Below, in pieces: positions 53,779-64,000 of a stretch of DNA of 64,000 nucleotides. The notes below the pieces were generated by a model that was not told the DNA's origin, did no database searches, and was given only the letters and a program-made list of their open reading frames with translations. Location: assembly GCA_029262635.1 (NCBI GenBank), contig JAJCZA010000005.1, positions 372,001-436,000 on the forward strand. Direction: 5' to 3'. Every line of letters starts with the position of its first letter. The first letter of the stretch is position 1. Origin of the DNA: Vampirovibrionales bacterium (GTDB lineage: Bacteria > Cyanobacteriota > Vampirovibrionia > Vampirovibrionales > Vampirovibrionaceae). A program made the translations under genes and the position numbers.

Positions 53779-54444
53779 TTAAGTGGTTTTAAATAGGCCG
53801 TTTAAAATCGTTTGAAGTTGGGCCATAATTTCTTGATGCAGAAACTCTTTCGTTTTTAATGCCTCCATTACCCGAAAGCGATCGGGCTCGTTGGTGGCAA
53901 TCGCTCGATAACCTTGAGCGGTCTTTTCAAAAAAGTTCAGCTTTTCTTGTTCCAGCCGATCGGTTTCGCCTCGTTGGTCCACTCGTGTCAATAGAACCGC
54001 CGGGTTACCATCAAGCAGGAAGGTCAGATCTGGCTTTCTGTTCCCAGTGGCCATGTCGTTGAGTTGCTGAATCATGGCTTTGTCCAGATTCCGGCCATAA
54101 CCTTGATAAGCCATGGTGGAATCAATATGACGGTCGCAGAGGATAATGGTCCCTTTGGCTAGAGCCGGTAAAATGACTTCATCCATGTGTTGAGCCCGGT
54201 CGGCAATATAAAGAAGCAGTTCGCACCGGGGGGATACGTAACCGGGGTGGTGGAGAAGAATTTTTCGAATACCTTGTCCGAGGTTTGTTCCGCCGGGGTT
54301 TCGGGTAATCAGAACGGTGTAACCGGCTTTCTCTAGTGCCTGTTGACAAAGAGCCATTTGGGTTGACTTGCCGGAACCATCAATGCCTTCAAAAGTGATG
54401 AATAAGCCGTTGGTCGGTGTGTTAGCAGAGGAAAGGGGAGTCAT
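53779..54444 (-). CDS. tmk: Thymidylate kinase
   Basis: Tmk phosphorylates dTMP to dTDP. The 221-residue protein has the P-loop FEGIDGSGKST, the DRH/DRx substrate motif CDRHIDSTMAYQGYGR and a LID region (RGETDRLEQEKLNFFEKTAQGY). All are intact. Its start overlaps the R3H/AAA gene stop by 4 nt, and it stops 4 nt from the convergent CDF-fusion gene. Confidence 0.95.
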   Translation of the reverse strand: MTPLSSANTPTNGLFITFEGIDGSGKSTQMALCQQALEKAGYTVLITRNPGGTNLGQGIRKILLHHPGYVSPRCELLLYIADRAQHMDEVILPALAKGTIILCDRHIDSTMAYQGYGRNLDKAMIQQLNDMATGNRKPDLTFLLDGNPAVLLTRVDQRGETDRLEQEKLNFFEKTAQGYRAIATNEPDRFRVMEALKTKEFLHQEIMAQLQTILNGLFKTT

Positions 54445-56093
54445 GATGACTGGGTCTCGAGTTCTTCTGTTTTCTGGGTAATGTCCTTTTTAACGTCAGT
54501 TCGGTCGCTGTTTTCGGTGGCCTTTGGGGGAAGGATTTTAATATGCCGGTTGGGCTCATCGCCCACGCTGATGCTAATGAGTTCACTTTTTTCGATTAGT
54601 TCGTGTTGCAGGCGACGAATGAACGAGCGTCGAGGAGCCAGTTCAATAATTTCGCCCTTTTCTAAAATCTGCTCAATGGCTTCTCGTGCCTCCTGAAGAG
54701 CCAGCTCTGTTTCGTTTTCCTGACCCTCTTCTACTAAAAGGTCGGTAAAGGCCCCGTCCTTGGTCTGAAGAGCCTCTCGCATGACGCGCTGGATTTGGGG
54801 CATGGTGTTGGTTTTTACGATATAGACGGGTACTTCGTAATCTTCGGCGAGCTGTACAATTTTTGAACCCGGTCGGGCACTGCCTCGAAGAGCAATAATA
54901 GCATTGGCATCGTGAATATGGTTGGTGGTGGTTACGTTCTTTAGGTGTAGGCGTTGGATAATGCGATCCACATAGGCGCGGTTGACGGAATACAGGAAAA
55001 TCCGAAAGTCAGCAGCCTGATTGATGCTTGGGCTGGGGTGATGGTATTGATTCTTTTCGATGCTCTCGGCAATTTCGTTGGCCTGAATTTCTTCGTTAAT
55101 CACATCGGGCAGGGCTTTGACATCGCTCTGAAGAATACGAACGGTACCGGTTTTATCATCGACTCGACGAACTTCCGGGAAAATGGTCCAACCTCGGAGA
55201 ATGTGATCCACGGCTTCAGCCACGTCCGGGTAAACAGCCATGGTAGAGTGGTCGCGCATTTCCACACAAATATCAAAGGTGGGTTTGTTCTCTCGTTCAA
55301 GAACCGTTTTCTGAGAAGCGCGGCGTTTGGCTTCGTCATCGCCCAAAGTCACGGTTTGGACTCCGCCAATGAGATCCGAGAGCATTGGGTTTTTGATTAG
55401 GCTTTCTAGCGTACTGCCGTGGGCCGTAGCGATAAGAATGACCCCTCGTTCAGCGATGGTTCGAGAGGCTAAGGCTTCGGCCTCGGTTCCAATTTCATCC
55501 ACGATAATCACTTCGGGTGTGTGGTTTTCCACGGCTTCAATCATGACTTCTTTTTGCTTTTCTGGTGAACTAACTTGCATTCGGCGACTTCGACCGACGG
55601 CAGGGTGGGGGATATCTCCGTCCCCAGCAATCTCATTTGAGGTATCGACGATAACCACTCGCTTTTTCTGGTCATCGGCGAGCAATTTAGCAATTTCCCG
55701 AAGTTTCGTGGTTTTCCCCATGCCGGGCGGGCCAAGAATTAAAAGGCTTTTTCCGGATTCGACTAAATCTTTGATGCATTCAATGGTACCGGTGATAACC
55801 TTCCCAACCCGGCAGGTCAGGCCAACAACTTCGCCCTGACGGTTTCGGAGAGCGCTAATTCGGTGAAGGGTTCGAGGGATCCCGGCCCGGTTATCCGAGG
55901 TGAAGTGGCCAATGTGTTTGATGACATGGTTTAGATCATTATGGGTGATTTGTTGGTTGCCGAGAAGCTCGAACCGTTTTTTCCGGAAGCGGCCCTCGGG
56001 TAATCGGCCTAAATCCATAACCACTTCAATCAGGTTTTCTAAATCGTGTTGGACGAGGGCTTGACGGACAGCCTCCGGGAGGATATCAATCAA
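54441..56093 (-). CDS. Ycf45-like AAA ATPase with R3H domain
   Basis: The 550-residue protein has an ATPase core similar to the SpoIIIAA/Ycf45 family: Walker A LILGPPGMGKTTKLREIA, RVVIVDTSNEIAGDGDIPHPAVGRSRRMQV, Walker B PEVIIVDEIGTEAEA and ATAHGSTLESLIKNPMLSDLIGGVQTVTLGDDEA. A middle segment of unknown fold (HDANAIIALRGSARPGSKIVQLAEDYEVPVYIVKT) follows, then a C-terminal R3H nucleic-acid-binding segment (APRRSFIRRLQHELIEKSELISISVGDEPNRHIKI). This architecture is typical of Cyanobacteria and plastids. The only in-frame start is TTG at 56093. It is coupled to tmk. Confidence 0.88.
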   Translation of the reverse strand: MIDILPEAVRQALVQHDLENLIEVVMDLGRLPEGRFRKKRFELLGNQQITHNDLNHVIKHIGHFTSDNRAGIPRTLHRISALRNRQGEVVGLTCRVGKVITGTIECIKDLVESGKSLLILGPPGMGKTTKLREIAKLLADDQKKRVVIVDTSNEIAGDGDIPHPAVGRSRRMQVSSPEKQKEVMIEAVENHTPEVIIVDEIGTEAEALASRTIAERGVILIATAHGSTLESLIKNPMLSDLIGGVQTVTLGDDEAKRRASQKTVLERENKPTFDICVEMRDHSTMAVYPDVAEAVDHILRGWTIFPEVRRVDDKTGTVRILQSDVKALPDVINEEIQANEIAESIEKNQYHHPSPSINQAADFRIFLYSVNRAYVDRIIQRLHLKNVTTTNHIHDANAIIALRGSARPGSKIVQLAEDYEVPVYIVKTNTMPQIQRVMREALQTKDGAFTDLLVEEGQENETELALQEAREAIEQILEKGEIIELAPRRSFIRRLQHELIEKSELISISVGDEPNRHIKILPPKATENSDRTDVKKDITQKTEELETQSS

Positions 56094-56136: not shown

Positions 56137-57264
56137 TTATTTGACGGGGTTGTTCAAGGTTACTCCCAGTCCTGAGGGTATGATGGGAGCCGTTTGGTCT
56201 GCCTTTATTATAACCGATTTTTTCCGGTGCTGAAAAGGGGTAATCAATCGTTGGGCGATGTGTTGGGCATGAGGGGAGAGGCTTCCCTCTTCCGTTGGCT
56301 TTAGGTGATGCCAGACAGCTTGTCGGGCGACCGTACCCATACCGACCCCGGCGATAAACTGGTATTGAGGCTGATTCAGGTAGTCGGCTGTTTGGGCGTT
56401 GACGCCGCCGGAGAGGGTGATAAACGGGAATTGGTCTTGGGTTTGAGCTTTAAATGCCATGGCGGCCCGAAGCACCGGGAGTGACGTGTCTGCTTGATCG
56501 GAACCGGACATGGGGGCGCCGTCAATCTGGATAATTAGGGGGAAATCGGGGCTGATCGTTTGGGCAAACGATTGTATTTGGGTTAAAAAGGAAAGCCATT
56601 GGGCGGGTTTCACCGTGTCTGGGCGAAAGCATACGGAAAGTGCTTTTTTCTTAAGAGCCAACTGGAATGGCTTTAGAAAGTCAGAAAGCATATAAGGATC
56701 CGCAAAACGGGTGTGGATTTCAACGGCTCCGACGAGCGGATGAGATAACAAACGGTTCAGTTTTTCTGGATTTTGATGGAAGGGGCGAAGTATCAGTGCT
56801 TGTGTCGGGCAGGTGGTTACGCATCGACCACAACCATAACAAAGGGGCTGGATAATGTTGAGCCGGGCTTTATCGGAAGATAGTTCGATGGCGTTGGTGG
56901 GACAGATGGGGATGCAAGCGTTGCATAAAATGCAATCAGGTTCCTGAAGGTCGATTTTTCGGAAATGAGGATCCGGGTCGAGGGGAATGGACACCATGAT
57001 TAACGGGTGGGGCATCTCGTTGGGGAGTGAGGTTAGTCCGGTTGCGACGGCCTGTAAAACCGCTTCATCGGGGGCAATATCAATAGCATGACACCCGGCT
57101 TTAGCATAGATAGCCGTAAGCTGACTGACTTTGTCTGTTTCGGTAAAACTTCCGCCACAAATGAGTTTGAAAAACCGGTGGTCTTCCAGTGCGGTGCGGG
57201 CGCGGTGTTGGGCGGGTGTCAATGAGTGTTTCATGGATGCGACTAAAGTAGCGTAGTCGGTCAT
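56137..57264 (-). CDS. LdpA-like iron-sulfur protein
   Basis: From ATG 57264 the 375-residue protein begins with a domain matching the cyanobacterial LdpA start (RFFKLICGGSF, YAKAGCHAIDIAPDEAVLQA). Two [4Fe-4S] motifs follow: C111-x2-C114-x2-C117-x3-C121 and C142-x2-C145-x2-C148-x3-C152. The C-terminal region (LPLIIQIDGAPMSGSD, FITLSGGVNAQTADYL) resembles a TIM-barrel-like LdpA C-terminal domain. LdpA links redox state to the circadian clock in Synechococcus. The frame is open up to 57381 but overlaps the tRNA, so the later ATG is used. Confidence 0.75.
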   Translation of the reverse strand: MTDYATLVASMKHSLTPAQHRARTALEDHRFFKLICGGSFTETDKVSQLTAIYAKAGCHAIDIAPDEAVLQAVATGLTSLPNEMPHPLIMVSIPLDPDPHFRKIDLQEPDCILCNACIPICPTNAIELSSDKARLNIIQPLCYGCGRCVTTCPTQALILRPFHQNPEKLNRLLSHPLVGAVEIHTRFADPYMLSDFLKPFQLALKKKALSVCFRPDTVKPAQWLSFLTQIQSFAQTISPDFPLIIQIDGAPMSGSDQADTSLPVLRAAMAFKAQTQDQFPFITLSGGVNAQTADYLNQPQYQFIAGVGMGTVARQAVWHHLKPTEEGSLSPHAQHIAQRLITPFQHRKKSVIIKADQTAPIIPSGLGVTLNNPVK

Positions 57265-57354
57265 GGGATTCAATAGGTTGGTCTGATTCCTTCTTTTTAA
57301 AGGATTGTAATTCCGTTTGATCTTGGGTATAAAAAGGGCAGAGAAATTAAGGAT

Positions 57355-57430
<76 letters not shown>

Positions 57431-57739: not shown

Positions 57740-59797
57740 TTATTTCCAGGTATAGGTACGGCCCCAGCTTTCTTTGGCCAGTGTTTCAATTTCTCTCACA
57801 ACCTGAGTAGGAACGGCGAATCCGTCTCCCTCTTCATAAGGGTTGTAGTGAAATGCGTAAAGACGTGAAACAAACTGATTAAAAGGCAACGATGACTCCC
57901 CTTCCTCTTCACCGTTTTCATAAACAGAAGGCTGTATCTCTTGTCCCCAATCTTGACGCCCTTCATTATTGGGGTTGTAAAAATAAATTCGAAGCTGACC
58001 TTTTGGATCTTGGCTGATTCGTTGAATTGAAACAGCATGCATTCCTAATAAATCCGCATGGGTGTTGGTAATCAGTAATCCGACAGGATTAGGGTACATG
58101 AGTTCGTAGCCATCGTTGAATGTGGGGTGATGGGTAGAAAAGAATCGACGAACAAAATCTTCATAGTTTGCCACTTGACCTTGCAAGTCGAAAACAGAAG
58201 AGAATCCTGAAGAAACCCAGCGACCATATAAAGCCGGATTGACCCATTTATGGCCATCTTCGTTGCGCAGGGCAACCTGCACCATTAAAGCACTATAGAC
58301 TCGGTCCAAATGGGGGACCAATACCAAAGATACGGGATCCAGGTCCAAATCGATGGTTGTCATTAACCCATTTTCTAATTGATTGGATTGAATGGTTGTC
58401 CCTTCAAACGGTACTTCAATTAAACCATCGCGAGCAGCACTGACTAATAATTCAATAAGATAACCTGGTGCATGTTGGCTCCAGAGACTAATTCCACGGG
58501 CCGACTGACACGTTGGGTTTTTACCTTGGCCAATCCCCAAAGGCTGACCCAAAACCATAATTAAACCCGCCACTAAAATCGAATTCGCCGTGACACCGTC
58601 TTGAGATGGGCGCTGGGCTAAAAGAGTTTGTCTGGCCTCTGAACAAATATCCAAATCAATAAGCCGGTTAATACCGCTAATAATTTCAGTACGTGAAAAT
58701 AAACTACGTTCCAGCATAACGGCGAGGCCATAAATCGCCCTGAATGTTGAGGGTAAAATAGCGAAACGAATGAGTTGATGAACAAATTTCTCGTTCTCAG
58801 CCAACTCAGCCTGACCGGATTCATTGAGACCGAGAGATTTTGCAATCAGCTCGGGGGCCTGTCGTCTTAAAAAACGGACCAAAATAGCATGGTTTGGGCT
58901 GGAAAGACCTGTCGTTCGAAGTATGTCGCCAAAATGTTCTGCTTCTGCTTCTAAAGCCGATATATCGGCGTTTTGAAGCGCTTGCCGGTAGGAGGCGAAA
59001 TCTTTACAATCTTGACTCAGTGGACTAATCCCATGAATCGCCGTAGAGAAGTGATCCAGTTTTTTATGCGTTTCATCAGGGGTTTTGGGGGGTGGAATTT
59101 TACTCGCCATTTCAATCATTTTACGCACGTTTTCCGTCATGATTGGACGCTGCATGATAACTTGTTCAATTTCAGAAACCACATCTTCTCGCAAGCTCTC
59201 TAAAGAAAGCTCTGAAGCGAGTAAAGTGAATAACCGCTCATTACTCTCTTGATTTGGGTTTCCCTGAATTCTTTGTTGTTCGGTTCCCCCCGTAGGAAAG
59301 ACAAATTCAAAATTTAAAGCAATCACTTTTTCTAAAAAGCGGGTGGCGTCTTTCGTATCGACTTTAGCGTTTTTTGCGTGTCCTTTTGCAATCGCCAGCA
59401 TGCGGAGCTCGCTTAAGCTTTCGAGTGTTGGATAAACCCCGATAGCCAACAAACTTCCTTTAACCAATTCTGGCCGGAGTTTTTCGGGGTGTTCCCAAGA
59501 TCCGCCGTAGAATACCCCGTAAGGACCAAAAAGGTGTGCTCGAGTGTACAGTGCCCGTAAACCTTCATTACTTTCTAGCAGAACTTGGGCCAGCTGAAAA
59601 ATAGTGTCCTGATAGGGTCCCTTAGCAAAAGGCTTCGCCTGATTTAAAGATTCTAGAGCCGAATCAAACTTTTCAGCCATTCGGGCAATTTTTGAGGGAA
59701 CAGTGGCATCATACGTTTGAGGTGAATGACCTGATAGTGCATTCATCTTATTTTTCTCCCTGCTTAATATCGATTTTAATTGTCCTAGAATACTCAT
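57740..59797 (-). CDS. Large protein with predicted papain-like Cys-His-Asn domain
   Basis: The 685-residue protein matches no family I know. Residues 1-400 are mainly helical (LESLSELRMLAIAKG, FLRRQAPELIAKSLGL). The C-terminal 270 residues resemble a papain/transglutaminase-type hydrolase. Cys430 lies at a helix start after a Gly-rich loop (GIGQGKNPTCQSARGISLWS), His587 precedes a strand (LLGMHAVSI), and Asn608 follows the next strand (LRIYFYNPNNEGRQDWG). Spacing and local context fit a Cys-His-Asn triad. No signal peptide or membrane helix is visible. Its start overlaps the ATP-grasp stop by 4 nt, so the two products probably act together. Catalysis is inferred only. Confidence 0.6.
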   Translation of the reverse strand: MSILGQLKSILSREKNKMNALSGHSPQTYDATVPSKIARMAEKFDSALESLNQAKPFAKGPYQDTIFQLAQVLLESNEGLRALYTRAHLFGPYGVFYGGSWEHPEKLRPELVKGSLLAIGVYPTLESLSELRMLAIAKGHAKNAKVDTKDATRFLEKVIALNFEFVFPTGGTEQQRIQGNPNQESNERLFTLLASELSLESLREDVVSEIEQVIMQRPIMTENVRKMIEMASKIPPPKTPDETHKKLDHFSTAIHGISPLSQDCKDFASYRQALQNADISALEAEAEHFGDILRTTGLSSPNHAILVRFLRRQAPELIAKSLGLNESGQAELAENEKFVHQLIRFAILPSTFRAIYGLAVMLERSLFSRTEIISGINRLIDLDICSEARQTLLAQRPSQDGVTANSILVAGLIMVLGQPLGIGQGKNPTCQSARGISLWSQHAPGYLIELLVSAARDGLIEVPFEGTTIQSNQLENGLMTTIDLDLDPVSLVLVPHLDRVYSALMVQVALRNEDGHKWVNPALYGRWVSSGFSSVFDLQGQVANYEDFVRRFFSTHHPTFNDGYELMYPNPVGLLITNTHADLLGMHAVSIQRISQDPKGQLRIYFYNPNNEGRQDWGQEIQPSVYENGEEEGESSLPFNQFVSRLYAFHYNPYEEGDGFAVPTQVVREIETLAKESWGRTYTWK

Positions 59798-61116
59798 GAA
59801 ATAACAGGTTCGGCAAACGATTCAGAGACATAAAAATCGACTTCTTGATCATAATAAACCAGAAGATCACGCATTTTATCCGGGTCATCACCATAAAAGA
59901 AAACGGTGCCGTAATGGTCTCCAAAAGCGACTCGGTCAGCTACTTTTAAACTGGCAGGAATAAATAAATTATGGTGGTCATAATAGGGATGCTCTAAAAG
60001 AGCGTCCGGGACGTTGACGTTGTTCACTATTTTTTGTTTCGGGTACACCATCACACAACCGGCATAACCCTGACGGTCTTTTGCGTCGGTTGGGAAGAAT
60101 TTATTTAATTCTTCTTCAGGTGTGTTGGGATTTGCACAAAGTGCAAACCCTAGATACGGATCAAACCCATAAGCTTTCTGGATTAGGTCAAAAATATGTC
60201 CCCCAGGGATTCGGGCAGCGACTTCTCCAAAACTTATTTTTTTATCGGGTGTGATGAAAAATTCGGGGTGAATCATGCCATATTCAATCCCAAAGGCTTC
60301 AATCAATTGTTCCACTGCTGCGTGAATCAGAGGACGGTCGTTTTCTAAAGCTGGAGAAGCCGGAATAAAATTGGTATGACCAAGACGTATATATTCAGTA
60401 ATATTGAGGAACTGTATTTTTCCTTTATGAATAAACACTTCGCAGGAAAACTCCTGGCCTGCCAGATGACTTTCCATCAAGCAAGGGAAATCATCATCAC
60501 CGAGTTTTTTCTCAATATCGTCTTTACTGCGAATCATCACATGGCCCATTGAACCTGCCGCAGAGGTTGGCTTTACATGAATGGGCTCCATGTCTTCGCC
60601 TTCAAGTTTTAATAGAGCGCCATTGACCCGTTGAAAGAATTTATAAACGTCATTTATATTATCAGCCTCTTCGAACACACCAATACGGATACCATGCATT
60701 TGGGCTTTTCGCTTCATCATGGCTTTATCCCTGAAAAGAAAATAGCGATTAAACAGCCGGACGTCACTTCTGATTTGAGCATTGATGGAACCGGCCCACT
60801 CAACCGTTTCTTCATACAAGGGCACAGCGACCTCGACACCCGCTTCTGCTAATGTGTTGTATAAGCTCTGAGATTGGTCATTCACTTTATCAAACTGCCA
60901 CAACACATGAGGGATCTGATGGAGAAGCATGTATTCACTAAATTCTGGAGGAACAACCGCTACAAACGATTGATTGGCTTTATCCAATGATTCCATCATC
61001 GCTAAACTATAGCCTAACAGTGCCGTTTTTAAAGGATGAGCGGGCTTACAGTGAATTTGAGGCTTCCCTTCTGGGAGATCGGTTGCTTCTGTGGATGTTG
61101 TCATTCTATCTGTCAT
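59794..61116 (-). CDS. ATP-grasp carboxylate-amine ligase
   Basis: The 440-residue protein has an N-terminal Rossmann-like part (KTALLGYSLAMMES) and an ATP-grasp domain. Visible motifs are VKPTSAAGSMGHVMI (glycine-rich nucleotide loop), MESHLAGQEFSCEVFI, and the metal-binding segment MIHPEFFIT with FGEVAARIPGGHIFDLIQKAYGFD. Such enzymes activate a carboxylate as acyl phosphate and join it to an amine or amino acid. The substrate is unknown. GAGAGG lies 10 nt upstream of ATG 61116. It is coupled to the papain-like gene and follows the MarR-GNAT gene by 87 nt. Confidence 0.85.
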   Translation of the reverse strand: MTDRMTTSTEATDLPEGKPQIHCKPAHPLKTALLGYSLAMMESLDKANQSFVAVVPPEFSEYMLLHQIPHVLWQFDKVNDQSQSLYNTLAEAGVEVAVPLYEETVEWAGSINAQIRSDVRLFNRYFLFRDKAMMKRKAQMHGIRIGVFEEADNINDVYKFFQRVNGALLKLEGEDMEPIHVKPTSAAGSMGHVMIRSKDDIEKKLGDDDFPCLMESHLAGQEFSCEVFIHKGKIQFLNITEYIRLGHTNFIPASPALENDRPLIHAAVEQLIEAFGIEYGMIHPEFFITPDKKISFGEVAARIPGGHIFDLIQKAYGFDPYLGFALCANPNTPEEELNKFFPTDAKDRQGYAGCVMVYPKQKIVNNVNVPDALLEHPYYDHHNLFIPASLKVADRVAFGDHYGTVFFYGDDPDKMRDLLVYYDQEVDFYVSESFAEPVIS

Positions 61117-61203
61117 CTAAAGTTTACCTCTCAAATGGTTGACTCAATAAGCGAGTCATAAACGGTTCCGGCTTTATTTTACACTGAATATCTATATATC
61201 CTA

Positions 61204-62301
61204 CTAAAAGGTGTAGTGGAACAAATGAAACCCCTCTTCATAGTAGGGTTTAAGCACGCCATCTTCCCATTCTAAAATAGCGGATTTATCCGTTAAAAGG
61301 GTTTTAAAGCCAAACTTCTCGTAGGCACGAACAGCCCAAGTTGCTTCAGGGTGTGAAATCAAAACCATGCCCTTTAGACGGCGTTCTCGCGCCAGTTGTT
61401 CGGTAAAATTCATTAAAATTTGACCGTAGCGTTTGCCGACATGTTTTTTATCCAGATAGATATAGCCCAGATAAGCATAGTTCTCGAATTGCTGCATTGA
61501 AATGGTTCCAATGGGCTCATGATTATTATGGCTGATAAAAAACTCCCGCCGTTCAAAATTTATCTTTTTCCACTCATCGTCCACTTCATGCTCAGCCATG
61601 TCTTTTTCATCGGCAAAGGGGCGGTACCACTCGGCCGTTGAGCGAATAAAACCGGCAATGGTTTCCATATCTTCCCACTCGGCAGGACGGATGTTAAATC
61701 CTCTGTACCCGACATTGGAATGCTTTTGCTCCTTCGTGGTGATAGCCAGGGTGTCGGCATAAAGCTTTTCGCCGGGATGTTGTAGAGCGTTTACGTTTGG
61801 CATTAATATGGGAGACGCATCTTGTTCTTCAATACCCATTAGGTGAACAATGGTTTCTAAAGAGTGCACAATTGTATTCTGTGTTTCTTGTGGCAGAATG
61901 TCCAACCCCTCGATTAATTTTTCTTGAATCGGAGGAGGGGCACTATCAACCAAGGCTTTACCTTGCTCAGTCATCTGTACACTCACGATACGCCGATCAT
62001 TAGACTGGCGTATCCGCCGGAGTAATCCCCTTTTTTCAAGGCGATCCACAATACCAACGACCGTACTCGGGCTTAAATGAACCCGTTTTGCCAGATCTGA
62101 AACCGATAAAGAGTCTTCCTGACCAAGGTTTAGCAAGCAAAGCTGTTGAGGTGTTGTTAATCCGTAACGGTTTTGTAGTGCCTTAGAGTGCCTATCCGTC
62201 GCACGGATACACCTTCTTAAAAGCTGTAATACTTGATAAATAGGACTATCTTTATCTTGTAAGAAGGGTTTTGAGACGGGCTTCTGAAGGGTCGTTTCCA
62301 A
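61204..62301 (-). CDS. MarR-type regulator fused to a GNAT acetyltransferase
   Basis: Residues 1-150 of this 365-residue protein are a MarR winged-helix domain (YGLTTPQQLCLLNLGQEDSLSVSDLAKRVHLSPSTVVGIVDRLEKRGLLRRIRQSNDRRIVSVQMTEQGKALV). Residues 195-365 are a GNAT domain (IRPAEWEDMETIAGFIRS, IGTISMQQFENYAYLGYIYLDKKHVGKRYGQILM, VRAYEKFGFKTL), whose Gly-Lys-Arg-Tyr-Gly loop is the acetyl-CoA site. It is first in the leftward arm and divergent from the deacetylase gene, so autoregulation and control of both arms is likely. The acetyl group acceptor is unknown. Confidence 0.88.
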   Translation of the reverse strand: METTLQKPVSKPFLQDKDSPIYQVLQLLRRCIRATDRHSKALQNRYGLTTPQQLCLLNLGQEDSLSVSDLAKRVHLSPSTVVGIVDRLEKRGLLRRIRQSNDRRIVSVQMTEQGKALVDSAPPPIQEKLIEGLDILPQETQNTIVHSLETIVHLMGIEEQDASPILMPNVNALQHPGEKLYADTLAITTKEQKHSNVGYRGFNIRPAEWEDMETIAGFIRSTAEWYRPFADEKDMAEHEVDDEWKKINFERREFFISHNNHEPIGTISMQQFENYAYLGYIYLDKKHVGKRYGQILMNFTEQLARERRLKGMVLISHPEATWAVRAYEKFGFKTLLTDKSAILEWEDGVLKPYYEEGFHLFHYTF

Positions 62302-62368
62302 AATAAAATACCTTTCTTGTTGAAGTGATTTGATGTGAAATTAGTTTATTGAAAACAAAAACTGATGT

Positions 62369-62385
62369 CAAAGTGCCTAACTTTG
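62369..62385. promoter_or_regulatory. Palindrome in the divergent MarR-GNAT/deacetylase control region
   Basis: CAAAGT-N5-ACTTTG is a perfect inverted repeat of 17 bp. It lies 68 bp from the MarR-GNAT start and 43 bp from the deacetylase start, directly before TATATGATG, a plausible -10. Size and position fit a MarR-family operator. Confidence 0.55.
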
Positions 62386-62428
62386 TATATGATGAGTTCG
62401 TATCCACGTGTTTTACTTGGAGTTATTT

Positions 62429-63472
62429 ATGGCACCTTACCAAATCCCGGTTTACTTCCACCCCAATCAGCTATTGTTTCACCCTAAAAAGGACTGGGAT
62501 CAAAAAGGACTGCTTGAACACCCGGAAGTTCCTGAGCGAGCAGAGTCTATTTTAAAAGTGTTAAAAACCGCACCTGACGATTTTTTAATACACAAACCCG
62601 CTCGGGTGCCACTGACAGCTATTCAGCAAGTTCATCGTTTGGGCATGCTTCAGCTGTATCAGACCGCTTCCAAATTGTCAAAAGACCAACCTTTTTATCC
62701 GACTCATTTTCCAAAAGTTCATCAGAGAAAAGCCGATCCTAATAATATTCACCATGCTGGCTTTTACTGCATTGATACCAGCACACCATTATACAAAAAG
62801 ACCTGGACCTCAGCGTCGTGGAGTGCTGCCAGTGCGTATGAAGCGGCTCGCTCTTTAATTAGCGGTGAAAATAGGCTAACCTATGGGCTTTGCCGTCCTC
62901 CGGGTCACCATGCTGATCATAAATATTTTGGCGGCTTTTGCTATATCAACAATGCGGCGGTGGCGGCTCAAGCTTTAGGGGAGAAAGGTACCGTTGCTAT
63001 TTTAGACATCGACTACCACCACGGGGATGGCACCCAATCCATATTCTATTATGACAACAAGGTGTTGTACGTTTCTGTCCATGCGGATCCTGTAGACGAA
63101 TATCCATACTACAGTGGCCATGCACTTGAGCAAGGCTTAGAGGTCGGTGCGGGTTACACACTCAATATTCCCTTACCAAAAGGAACCAACGGTAGCGCTT
63201 ATCTAGCCGCCATCAAAGAACAGGTTCTTCCCAAGCTTCTGCAGTTTGAACCCACCTACCTGATTATTTCAGCTGGAATGGATATATATAGCCATGATCC
63301 TGTTGGGACGTTTAAGCTGGAGGTTGAGGATTTTTTCAAAACGGGTGAAACCATTGGTTCTCTAAACATCCCGACGGTCGTTGTTCAGGAAGGGGGCTAT
63401 TGTGTTCACGATTTGGGCTCCTGTGTTCAATCGCTTCTCTATGGATTACGCAGTGGAATGCAGTTGAAATAG
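62429..63472 (+). CDS. Acetylpolyamine amidohydrolase/HDAC-family deacetylase
   Basis: From ATG 62429 (GGAG 6 nt upstream) the 347-residue zinc enzyme has all class-defining residues: PPGHHADH (catalytic His pair), FGGFCYINNAAVAAQAL, LDIDYHHGDGTQSIFYY (zinc Asp and His), ISAGMDIYSHDPVG (second zinc Asp) and QEGGYCVHDLG (catalytic Tyr). SVHADPVDEYPYYSGHALEQG resembles acetylpolyamine amidohydrolase of Mycoplana more than AcuC or eukaryotic HDACs. It should remove acetyl from an amine such as an acetylpolyamine. It is followed 19 nt later by the antiporter gene. Confidence 0.87.
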   Translation: MAPYQIPVYFHPNQLLFHPKKDWDQKGLLEHPEVPERAESILKVLKTAPDDFLIHKPARVPLTAIQQVHRLGMLQLYQTASKLSKDQPFYPTHFPKVHQRKADPNNIHHAGFYCIDTSTPLYKKTWTSASWSAASAYEAARSLISGENRLTYGLCRPPGHHADHKYFGGFCYINNAAVAAQALGEKGTVAILDIDYHHGDGTQSIFYYDNKVLYVSVHADPVDEYPYYSGHALEQGLEVGAGYTLNIPLPKGTNGSAYLAAIKEQVLPKLLQFEPTYLIISAGMDIYSHDPVGTFKLEVEDFFKTGETIGSLNIPTVVVQEGGYCVHDLGSCVQSLLYGLRSGMQLK

Positions 63473-63491
63473 AATCTATCTTCAGGGAGGC

Positions 63492-64000
63492 ATGATGGGT
63501 AGAGCAGGCTTCTATGACACAAAAATATTCTATTTTGGCGTGTCTGCCATCGTGCTGGTATTGGTTGGATTGGCCGTTATTACACCCCAAAATGCCGCGA
63601 ATGCTTACTGGTATAGCTTGGTTCCTCCTTTATTTGCCATCGTTCTGGCCTCACTTAGCAAACGCCTAATTTTTAGCCTGTTCATGGGTGTTCTTACCGG
63701 TGGTCTTCTGGCCGTTATCCCTGTTGAAGGATTTGGATCGATTGTTCCGGGCCTGGTGGCTGGACCGAGTTATATGTTTAAATCGGTAGCGAATACCAGT
63801 AATCTGAGAATTCTTTTCTTTATTACTTGTGTATTGATGATGATCGCCATGATTATGGTTAGTGGAGGATTCCAGGCTGTTGTGGTCTATCTTAAACCCT
63901 TCGCAAAAGGTCCTTATTCAACCAAGCTGATTACAGCTTTGATGGGAGTTGTGTTGTTTATAGATGACTATGCCAACACGTTAATTATCGGTAATGCTAT
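63492..64000 (+). CDS. NhaC-family Na+/H+ antiporter, 3' end beyond window
   Basis: The 169 visible residues contain four or five membrane helices (IFYFGVSAIVLVLVGLAVI, WYSLVPPLFAIVLASL, LIFSLFMGVLTGGLLAVIPV, ILFFITCVLMMIAMIMV) and the family motif LFIDDYANTLIIGNA. NhaC-type proteins exchange sodium and protons, and some relatives move amino acids. AGGGAGG lies just upstream; ATG 63495 is an equally good start. Cotranscription with the deacetylase suggests it moves the substrate or product, which is inference. Confidence 0.85.
   Translation, partial: MMGRAGFYDTKIFYFGVSAIVLVLVGLAVITPQNAANAYWYSLVPPLFAIVLASLSKRLIFSLFMGVLTGGLLAVIPVEGFGSIVPGLVAGPSYMFKSVANTSNLRILFFITCVLMMIAMIMVSGGFQAVVVYLKPFAKGPYSTKLITALMGVVLFIDDYANTLIIGNA

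Follow-up and report, generated by a model that had tools for sequence, protein, structure and literature searches.

We analyzed a stretch of 64,000 nt (the window; positions 372,001 to 436,000 of contig JAJCZA010000005.1) from the 3.0-Mb genome of a Vampirovibrionales bacterium (GCA_029262635.1), in which a divergent gene cluster occupies positions 57740-64000. We suggest that three proteins encoded there, a GNAT acetyltransferase, an ATP-grasp ligase and a protein with papain-like motifs (PAP), are the conserved unit of a system for the synthesis and turnover of an N-acetylated amide, with a deacetylase (HDAC) as an optional partner, and we give this reading a probability of about 0.5. It is highly probable that GNAT, ATP-grasp, PAP and, where present, HDAC form one pathway; the pathway has about an even chance of having the shape proposed below, and any specific substrate that might be named is unlikely to be the right one. 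All open reading frames (ORFs) reported in an earlier interpretation of this DNA, the sequence-only reading, are present in the locus:

57740..59797, minus strand: PAP, protein with papain-like motif, ORF of 685 aa
59794..61116, minus strand: predicted ATP-grasp ligase of the L-amino-acid-ligase type, ORF of 440 aa (Pfam ATP-grasp_4)
61204..62301, minus strand: MarR-GNAT fusion, ORF of 365 aa (Pfam MarR and Acetyltransf_1)
62302..62428, no strand: divergent intergenic region between MarR-GNAT and HDAC, scanned for promoters and operators
62408..63472, plus strand: HDAC, deacetylase of the acetylpolyamine-amidohydrolase type, ORF of 354 aa (Pfam Hist_deacetyl)
63492..64000, plus strand: N-terminal part of an NhaC/Tet(35)-type Na+/H+ antiporter, an ORF that runs past the window end

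Relatives of PAP were found at eight loci of the genome collection and on one Halomonas replicon. The searches covered samples of genomes, and the absence of a neighbour counts for little because contigs of metagenome-assembled genomes are short. In the sampled groups, PAP is present in Planctomycetota (4 of 199 genomes), Bdellovibrionota (1 of 241), Gemmatimonadota (5 of 200) and the Lysinibacillus order (35 of 250), counts that include the query genomes. Seven phylum-level groups have the ATP-grasp and PAP genes side by side (Cyanobacteriota-like, Planctomycetota, Bdellovibrionota, Gemmatimonadota, Bacteroidia, Bacillota and Halomonas loci), and nearly every main PAP copy read has an adjoining ATP-grasp gene. 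The exceptions are extra PAP copies (L007, L037 and the 607-aa copies of Bacillota) and genome G460, where the ATP-grasp gene lies about 4 kb from PAP on the opposite strand.

The GNAT of the window belongs to a distinct orthologous group (alignment A3), which was detected in 13 of 14 non-Bacillota genomes with PAP and in none of 45 without it (E < 1e-30; Fisher 3e-12, the genomes not being independent), a pattern repeated in four phylum-level groups. Seven of the 14 genomes with PAP have the HDAC subtype, one of them as a fragment at a contig end, against 1 of the 45 without it (Fisher 7e-5, again with non-independent genomes). For about 10 of the PAP-negative genomes, from the family or order of the window, the negative status was set by a search for ATP-grasp and not for PAP. 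Since the adjacency recurs in seven groups and the GNAT is so unevenly distributed, the set exceeds a chance neighbourhood, though it is not a five-gene unit. The co-occurrence check called for by the sequence-only reading, whether the deacetylase and the GNAT travel with the ligase and the papain-like protein, thus gave a positive answer; of the five proposed neighbours, ATP-grasp, PAP and GNAT recur across phyla and HDAC in about half of the non-Bacillota cases, whereas the antiporter and the MarR fusion do not.

The linkage differs by phylum, with GNAT, HDAC and the ATP-grasp-PAP pair joined pairwise in varied arrangements. The order GNAT-ATP-grasp-PAP is seen in the Planctomycetota loci L004 and L070, and GNAT adjoins PAP in L071. 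MarR-GNAT-HDAC (G335) and GNAT-HDAC (G338) stand at second loci away from the pair, and in G337 GNAT-HDAC is on a separate contig. ATP-grasp, PAP and HDAC are found together in G533, as are GNAT, a truncated PAP and HDAC on contig C114 of G460. In the latter (L113 / L119), a fragment of PAP, about 130 aa long, lies between a second GNAT and an HDAC; this looks like a second copy of the set, either degenerate or misassembled.

These arrangements bear on the possibility of two independent units, one pathway being formed by ATP-grasp-PAP with GNAT, while HDAC and NhaC would be an unrelated unit for catabolism and transport of acetyl compounds that landed alongside. Three results would fit two units: no HDAC turned up in those sampled Gemmatimonadota and Bacillota that have the core, HDAC is present without PAP in G548, and NhaC was never beside the core in the other neighbourhoods read. 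Yet HDAC adjoins the same GNAT type in three genomes (G335, G337, G338), the truncated PAP in G460 and PAP in G533, and the subtype is concentrated in genomes with PAP as counted above, which makes a chance juxtaposition improbable.

The antiporter itself, complete outside the window (563 aa; assembly locus L002 10493-12184), has a Tet(35)-type Na+/H+ antiporter model as its best NCBIfam match, below the cut-off, with NhaC second. It was discarded as a member of the system, contrary to the sequence-only reading, since it stands beside the set in the window alone and its homologues are frequent in genomes without PAP. A weak enrichment of these homologues in genomes with PAP may indicate a supporting role, and the gene is probably a chance local neighbour.

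The regulatory half of the fusion is also local. Pfam recognizes MarR (2e-17) and Acetyltransf_1 (5e-13), the GNAT half beginning around residue 200 after a linker from residue 180, and it is this half that is the conserved partner. Among the genomes examined, the fused form occurs in two, that of the window and G335, and G335 is apparently the same as G292, a member of the family of the window. The MarR domain, which had been counted as part of the set, is therefore confined as a fusion to this one family.

The two leftward genes described in the sequence-only reading as coupled do overlap by 4 nt, and translational coupling of ATP-grasp and PAP is indicated by this overlap. Both lie downstream of MarR-GNAT, 87 nt separating it from the ATP-grasp gene, and given the overlap and this short gap the three look like a single leftward operon. 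On the opposite arm, 19 nt separate HDAC from the antiporter gene, both rightward. For HDAC, an ATG at 62429 with a GGAG 6 nt upstream is a more likely start than the GTG at 62408. The fused MarR domain would probably repress both the operon that encodes it and the divergent HDAC-NhaC operon. No convincing palindrome was found in the MarR-GNAT/HDAC intergenic region, and the promoter-like sites on both of its strands are no more numerous than expected by chance; a MarR operator there was consequently dropped.

PAP has about 400 aa of N-terminal helices followed by a C-terminal predicted papain-like domain. Papain-fold enzymes have an oxyanion Gln, a nucleophilic Cys at a helix start and, on the strands that come next, His and Asn/Asp. 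A diverse alignment of 17 rows (A4, including the Halomonas, Bacteroidia and second Bacillota copies) has Q424-x5-C430, H587 and N608 in every row, and in the structural model C430 opens a helix, H587 is within a strand and N608 comes after the next strand, with low confidence in this domain. The order of Gln, Cys, His and Asn is thus that of papain-like enzymes, in a part of the model that is of low confidence. Profile searches of Pfam, NCBIfam, PHROG, PADLOC and PDB returned no family for PAP, so the papain-like assignment is a prediction from motif and topology and not a homology match. The hydrolase proposed in the sequence-only reading holds as far as motif and topology go, with no family matched in any database searched, and direct papain homology was dropped after both profile and fold searches failed.

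Some Bacillota have a second, shorter PAP in tandem with the first, of about 607 aa and 35% identical to that of the window, which keeps the Cys, His and Asn and has no C-terminal tail. These copies are located as follows:

L080, 10725-12548: shorter Bacillota PAP
L081, 7092-8915: shorter Bacillota PAP
L082, 6873-8699: shorter Bacillota PAP
L087, 10663-12486: shorter Bacillota PAP

The ligase has the fold, the conserved Lys and the acidic metal residues of ATP-grasp enzymes. Pfam ATP-grasp_4 scores 34.4 bits (cut-off 27), and K182, E285, E298 and R302 are invariant across seven aligned rows. The profile of these rows matches RizA (4wd3, 6.6e-9) plus other L-amino-acid ligases, and the model (predicted local distance difference test, pLDDT, 81) matches 4wd3 at E 4.6e-25, its best fold matches being RizA, BL00235 and BacD. 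By profile and model, the enzyme is closest to the L-amino-acid ligases and may synthesize a dipeptide from free amino acids; a dipeptide-like amide is consequently at least as likely a product as a polyamine conjugate. The known enzymes RizA, BL00235 and BacD/YwfE, which act in dipeptide antibiotic pathways, share with it the ATP-grasp fold in full-length structural matches (template modelling, TM, score 0.63-0.70), but the identity in these structural alignments is only 14-19%. We know of no link between L-amino-acid ligases and a PAP-like protein. In the Bdellovibrionota loci L005 and L006, ATP-grasp is 62-64% identical to that of the window and PAP 44-45%, so that the coupled proteins diverged at unequal rates.

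HDAC matches Pfam Hist_deacetyl (2.5e-71), and its best PDB matches are acetylpolyamine amidohydrolases, near full length, with E-values of about 1e-64 to 1e-67. It has the arginase-deacetylase fold, the zinc ligands and the catalytic Tyr of that family, keeping the metal and catalytic residues H167/H168, D202/H204, D292 and Y331. The enzymes of Mycoplana, Burkholderia and Pseudomonas are similar over nearly the whole length, with catalytic and metal residues kept, but the HDAC of the window belongs to a subgroup that is 45-50% identical across phyla and tied to GNAT and PAP. It also differs in having Ser at the position aligned with the acidic polyamine-binding residue of MrAPAH, E117; another annotated acetylpolyamine amidohydrolase has a non-Glu residue there as well.

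The identity of HDAC raises the possibility of a polyamine-conjugate cycle, in which GNAT and HDAC would acetylate and deacetylate a polyamine, ATP-grasp would couple that polyamine with an amino acid or peptide, and the conjugate would be cleaved by PAP, as in glutathionylspermidine synthetase/amidase (GspSA). Beyond the HDAC matches, PaiA is the best PDB match of the GNAT profile (2.6e-7), and the window genome carries a spermidine synthase homologue (3.5e-68). On the other hand, GNAT stays far under the curated NCBIfam cut-off for PaiA/spermidine acetyltransferases (13.7 bits against 250 for PaiA), HDAC has the Ser mentioned above, variable as that position is, and 8 of 17 genomes with PAP, among them G335 and every PAP-positive genome sampled from Gemmatimonadota, have no match to the spermidine synthase family, while one further genome has a sub-threshold match only. 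Spermidine is for this reason not obligatory, and an obligate link was dropped. Of the cycle for an acetylated polyamine or short peptide put forward in the sequence-only reading, the enzymatic resemblances stand; a polyamine is a possible substrate, and a cycle dedicated to it is unlikely.

We also considered a protein-directed system, with GNAT and HDAC reversibly acetylating protein lysines while target proteins gain a peptide or amino-acid tag through ATP-grasp and lose it through PAP. ATP-grasp and papain-like enzymes operate in known protein-tagging systems, and the long helical N-terminal region predicted for PAP could bind a protein. However, the neighbourhoods read share no recurring gene for a small modifier or a dedicated target, ATP-grasp is nearest to ligases of free amino acids, and HDAC is of the small-molecule ApaH type. 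This alternative seems very improbable.

Under our preferred reading, the acetylated amide unit, GNAT would transfer an acetyl group to a free amine, that of an amino acid, such as the side-chain amine of lysine or ornithine, or of a diamine or polyamine. The ATP-grasp enzyme, whose fold is assigned by homology, would activate a carboxylate as acyl phosphate and ligate it to an amine. PAP, through its Cys-His-Asn site, may then hydrolyse the amide or move the acyl part to an acceptor, and HDAC, where present, would strip off the acetyl group and thereby regenerate the amine. The enzyme classes of GNAT, ATP-grasp and HDAC are established, as is the linkage, whereas the steps themselves are inferred. 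The product most likely serves as a metabolite of the stress or compatible-solute kind or as a store of amines, comparable with N-acetylglutaminylglutamine amide (NAGGN).

The synthetase of NAGGN, Ngg, is an ATP-grasp-type enzyme, and the ligase half of GspSA is an ATP-grasp amide ligase. These two systems are the closest analogues, NAGGN synthesis as a working pathway and the glutathionylspermidine cycle for the combination of ligase and papain-fold amidase, and neither fits in its defining parts. In NAGGN synthesis, acetylation and ligation yield a compatible solute, the operon being under a divergent MarR repressor; P. aeruginosa has a MarR-regulated GNAT/ATP-grasp/peptidase solute system (PMC8070244). 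The likeness of asnO-ngg-peptidase and its MarR regulator PA3458 to our set lies in the acetyltransferase, the ATP-grasp-type dipeptide ligation, the hydrolase gene and, in Pseudomonas, the divergent MarR (PMC8070244). In contrast, a single Ngg synthetase acts there and separate GNAT and ATP-grasp ORFs here, and the amide is made there by the asparagine-synthase-like AsnO with an aminopeptidase as hydrolase, where we find PAP and HDAC. No AsnO amidotransferase or aminopeptidase neighbour was recognised in the window and extended neighbourhood, the rest of the genome not being searched for AsnO, and NAGGN proteins including Ngg are not among the NCBIfam matches listed. GspSA likewise pairs an ATP-grasp ligase with a papain-fold (CHAP) amidase acting on an amine conjugate (PMC10318531), but here these are two separate proteins, with GNAT and a deacetylase as added partners, and neither PAP nor ATP-grasp matches the Pfam glutathionylspermidine synthase and CHAP families.

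Several results, together with the lack of HDAC in sampled Gemmatimonadota and Bacillota reported above, weigh against the acetylated amide unit. The Bacteroidia genome has the ATP-grasp/PAP pair without the GNAT of the window. In Bacillota the GNAT is of a different type, usually divergent from the ATP-grasp gene, whose relation to that of the window is marginal (hhalign probability 39%); scanning one member against NCBIfam gave a single, weak match, to EctA. The C-terminal domain of the PAP model is weak and database and fold searches lend the papain-like fold no support, the search with the whole model returning helical-repeat proteins only (E > 0.05) and no papain. The comparison with NAGGN is a functional analogy and not homology, and the enzyme roles from which substrates are deduced are predicted from sequence and models.

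Regarding the origin of the cluster, the PAP of the window groups with that of G335 and then with Planctomycetota, and ATP-grasp is present in 1 of 9 other sampled genomes of the family (G292). The GC content of the cluster is 42-46%, that of the two genes to its left about 50%. A horizontal gain is plausible. Among plasmid records, PAP occurs in one (a 1.8-Mb replicon of Halomonas) and the GNAT of the window in none, and spread by plasmids was dropped on these counts. A tRNA-Thr gene (cgt anticodon) at positions 57355-57430, just past the PAP end, sits where the lower-GC cluster meets its higher-GC neighbours and is a possible integration site.

Tentatively, and with considerable doubt, we propose an undescribed, horizontally spread system, in at least seven phylum-level groups, for the synthesis and recycling of a new acetylated solute (peptide-like or a diamine) by means of a new papain-like family and an L-amino-acid-ligase-type ATP-grasp enzyme, with GNAT and often a deacetylase. 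No description of this gene set was found in the open-access literature searched, though the pair may have been described before. PAP represents a protein family that has no name, whose catalytic-looking residues are invariant and whose enzymatic partners are conserved across distant phyla, and its linkage pattern makes this anonymous protein a testable step of a pathway, behind which there may be a new compatible solute or amine-storage compound. Its carriers include culturable Bacillota and Halomonas.

Other explanations of the locus were discarded. A lysine riboswitch or other RNA element was dropped, as Rfam gave tRNAs alone in L002, L031 and L032, and so was a defence or phage origin, PADLOC giving generic winged-helix matches only and PHROG none for PAP and ATP-grasp. 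Two genes further to the left in the window hint at a cyanobacterial lineage: a 550-aa protein (54441-56093) combines a Spore_III_AA-type ATPase and R3H domains with a match to a PTPase model, and an LdpA-like ferredoxin-domain gene (56137-57381) adjoins it.

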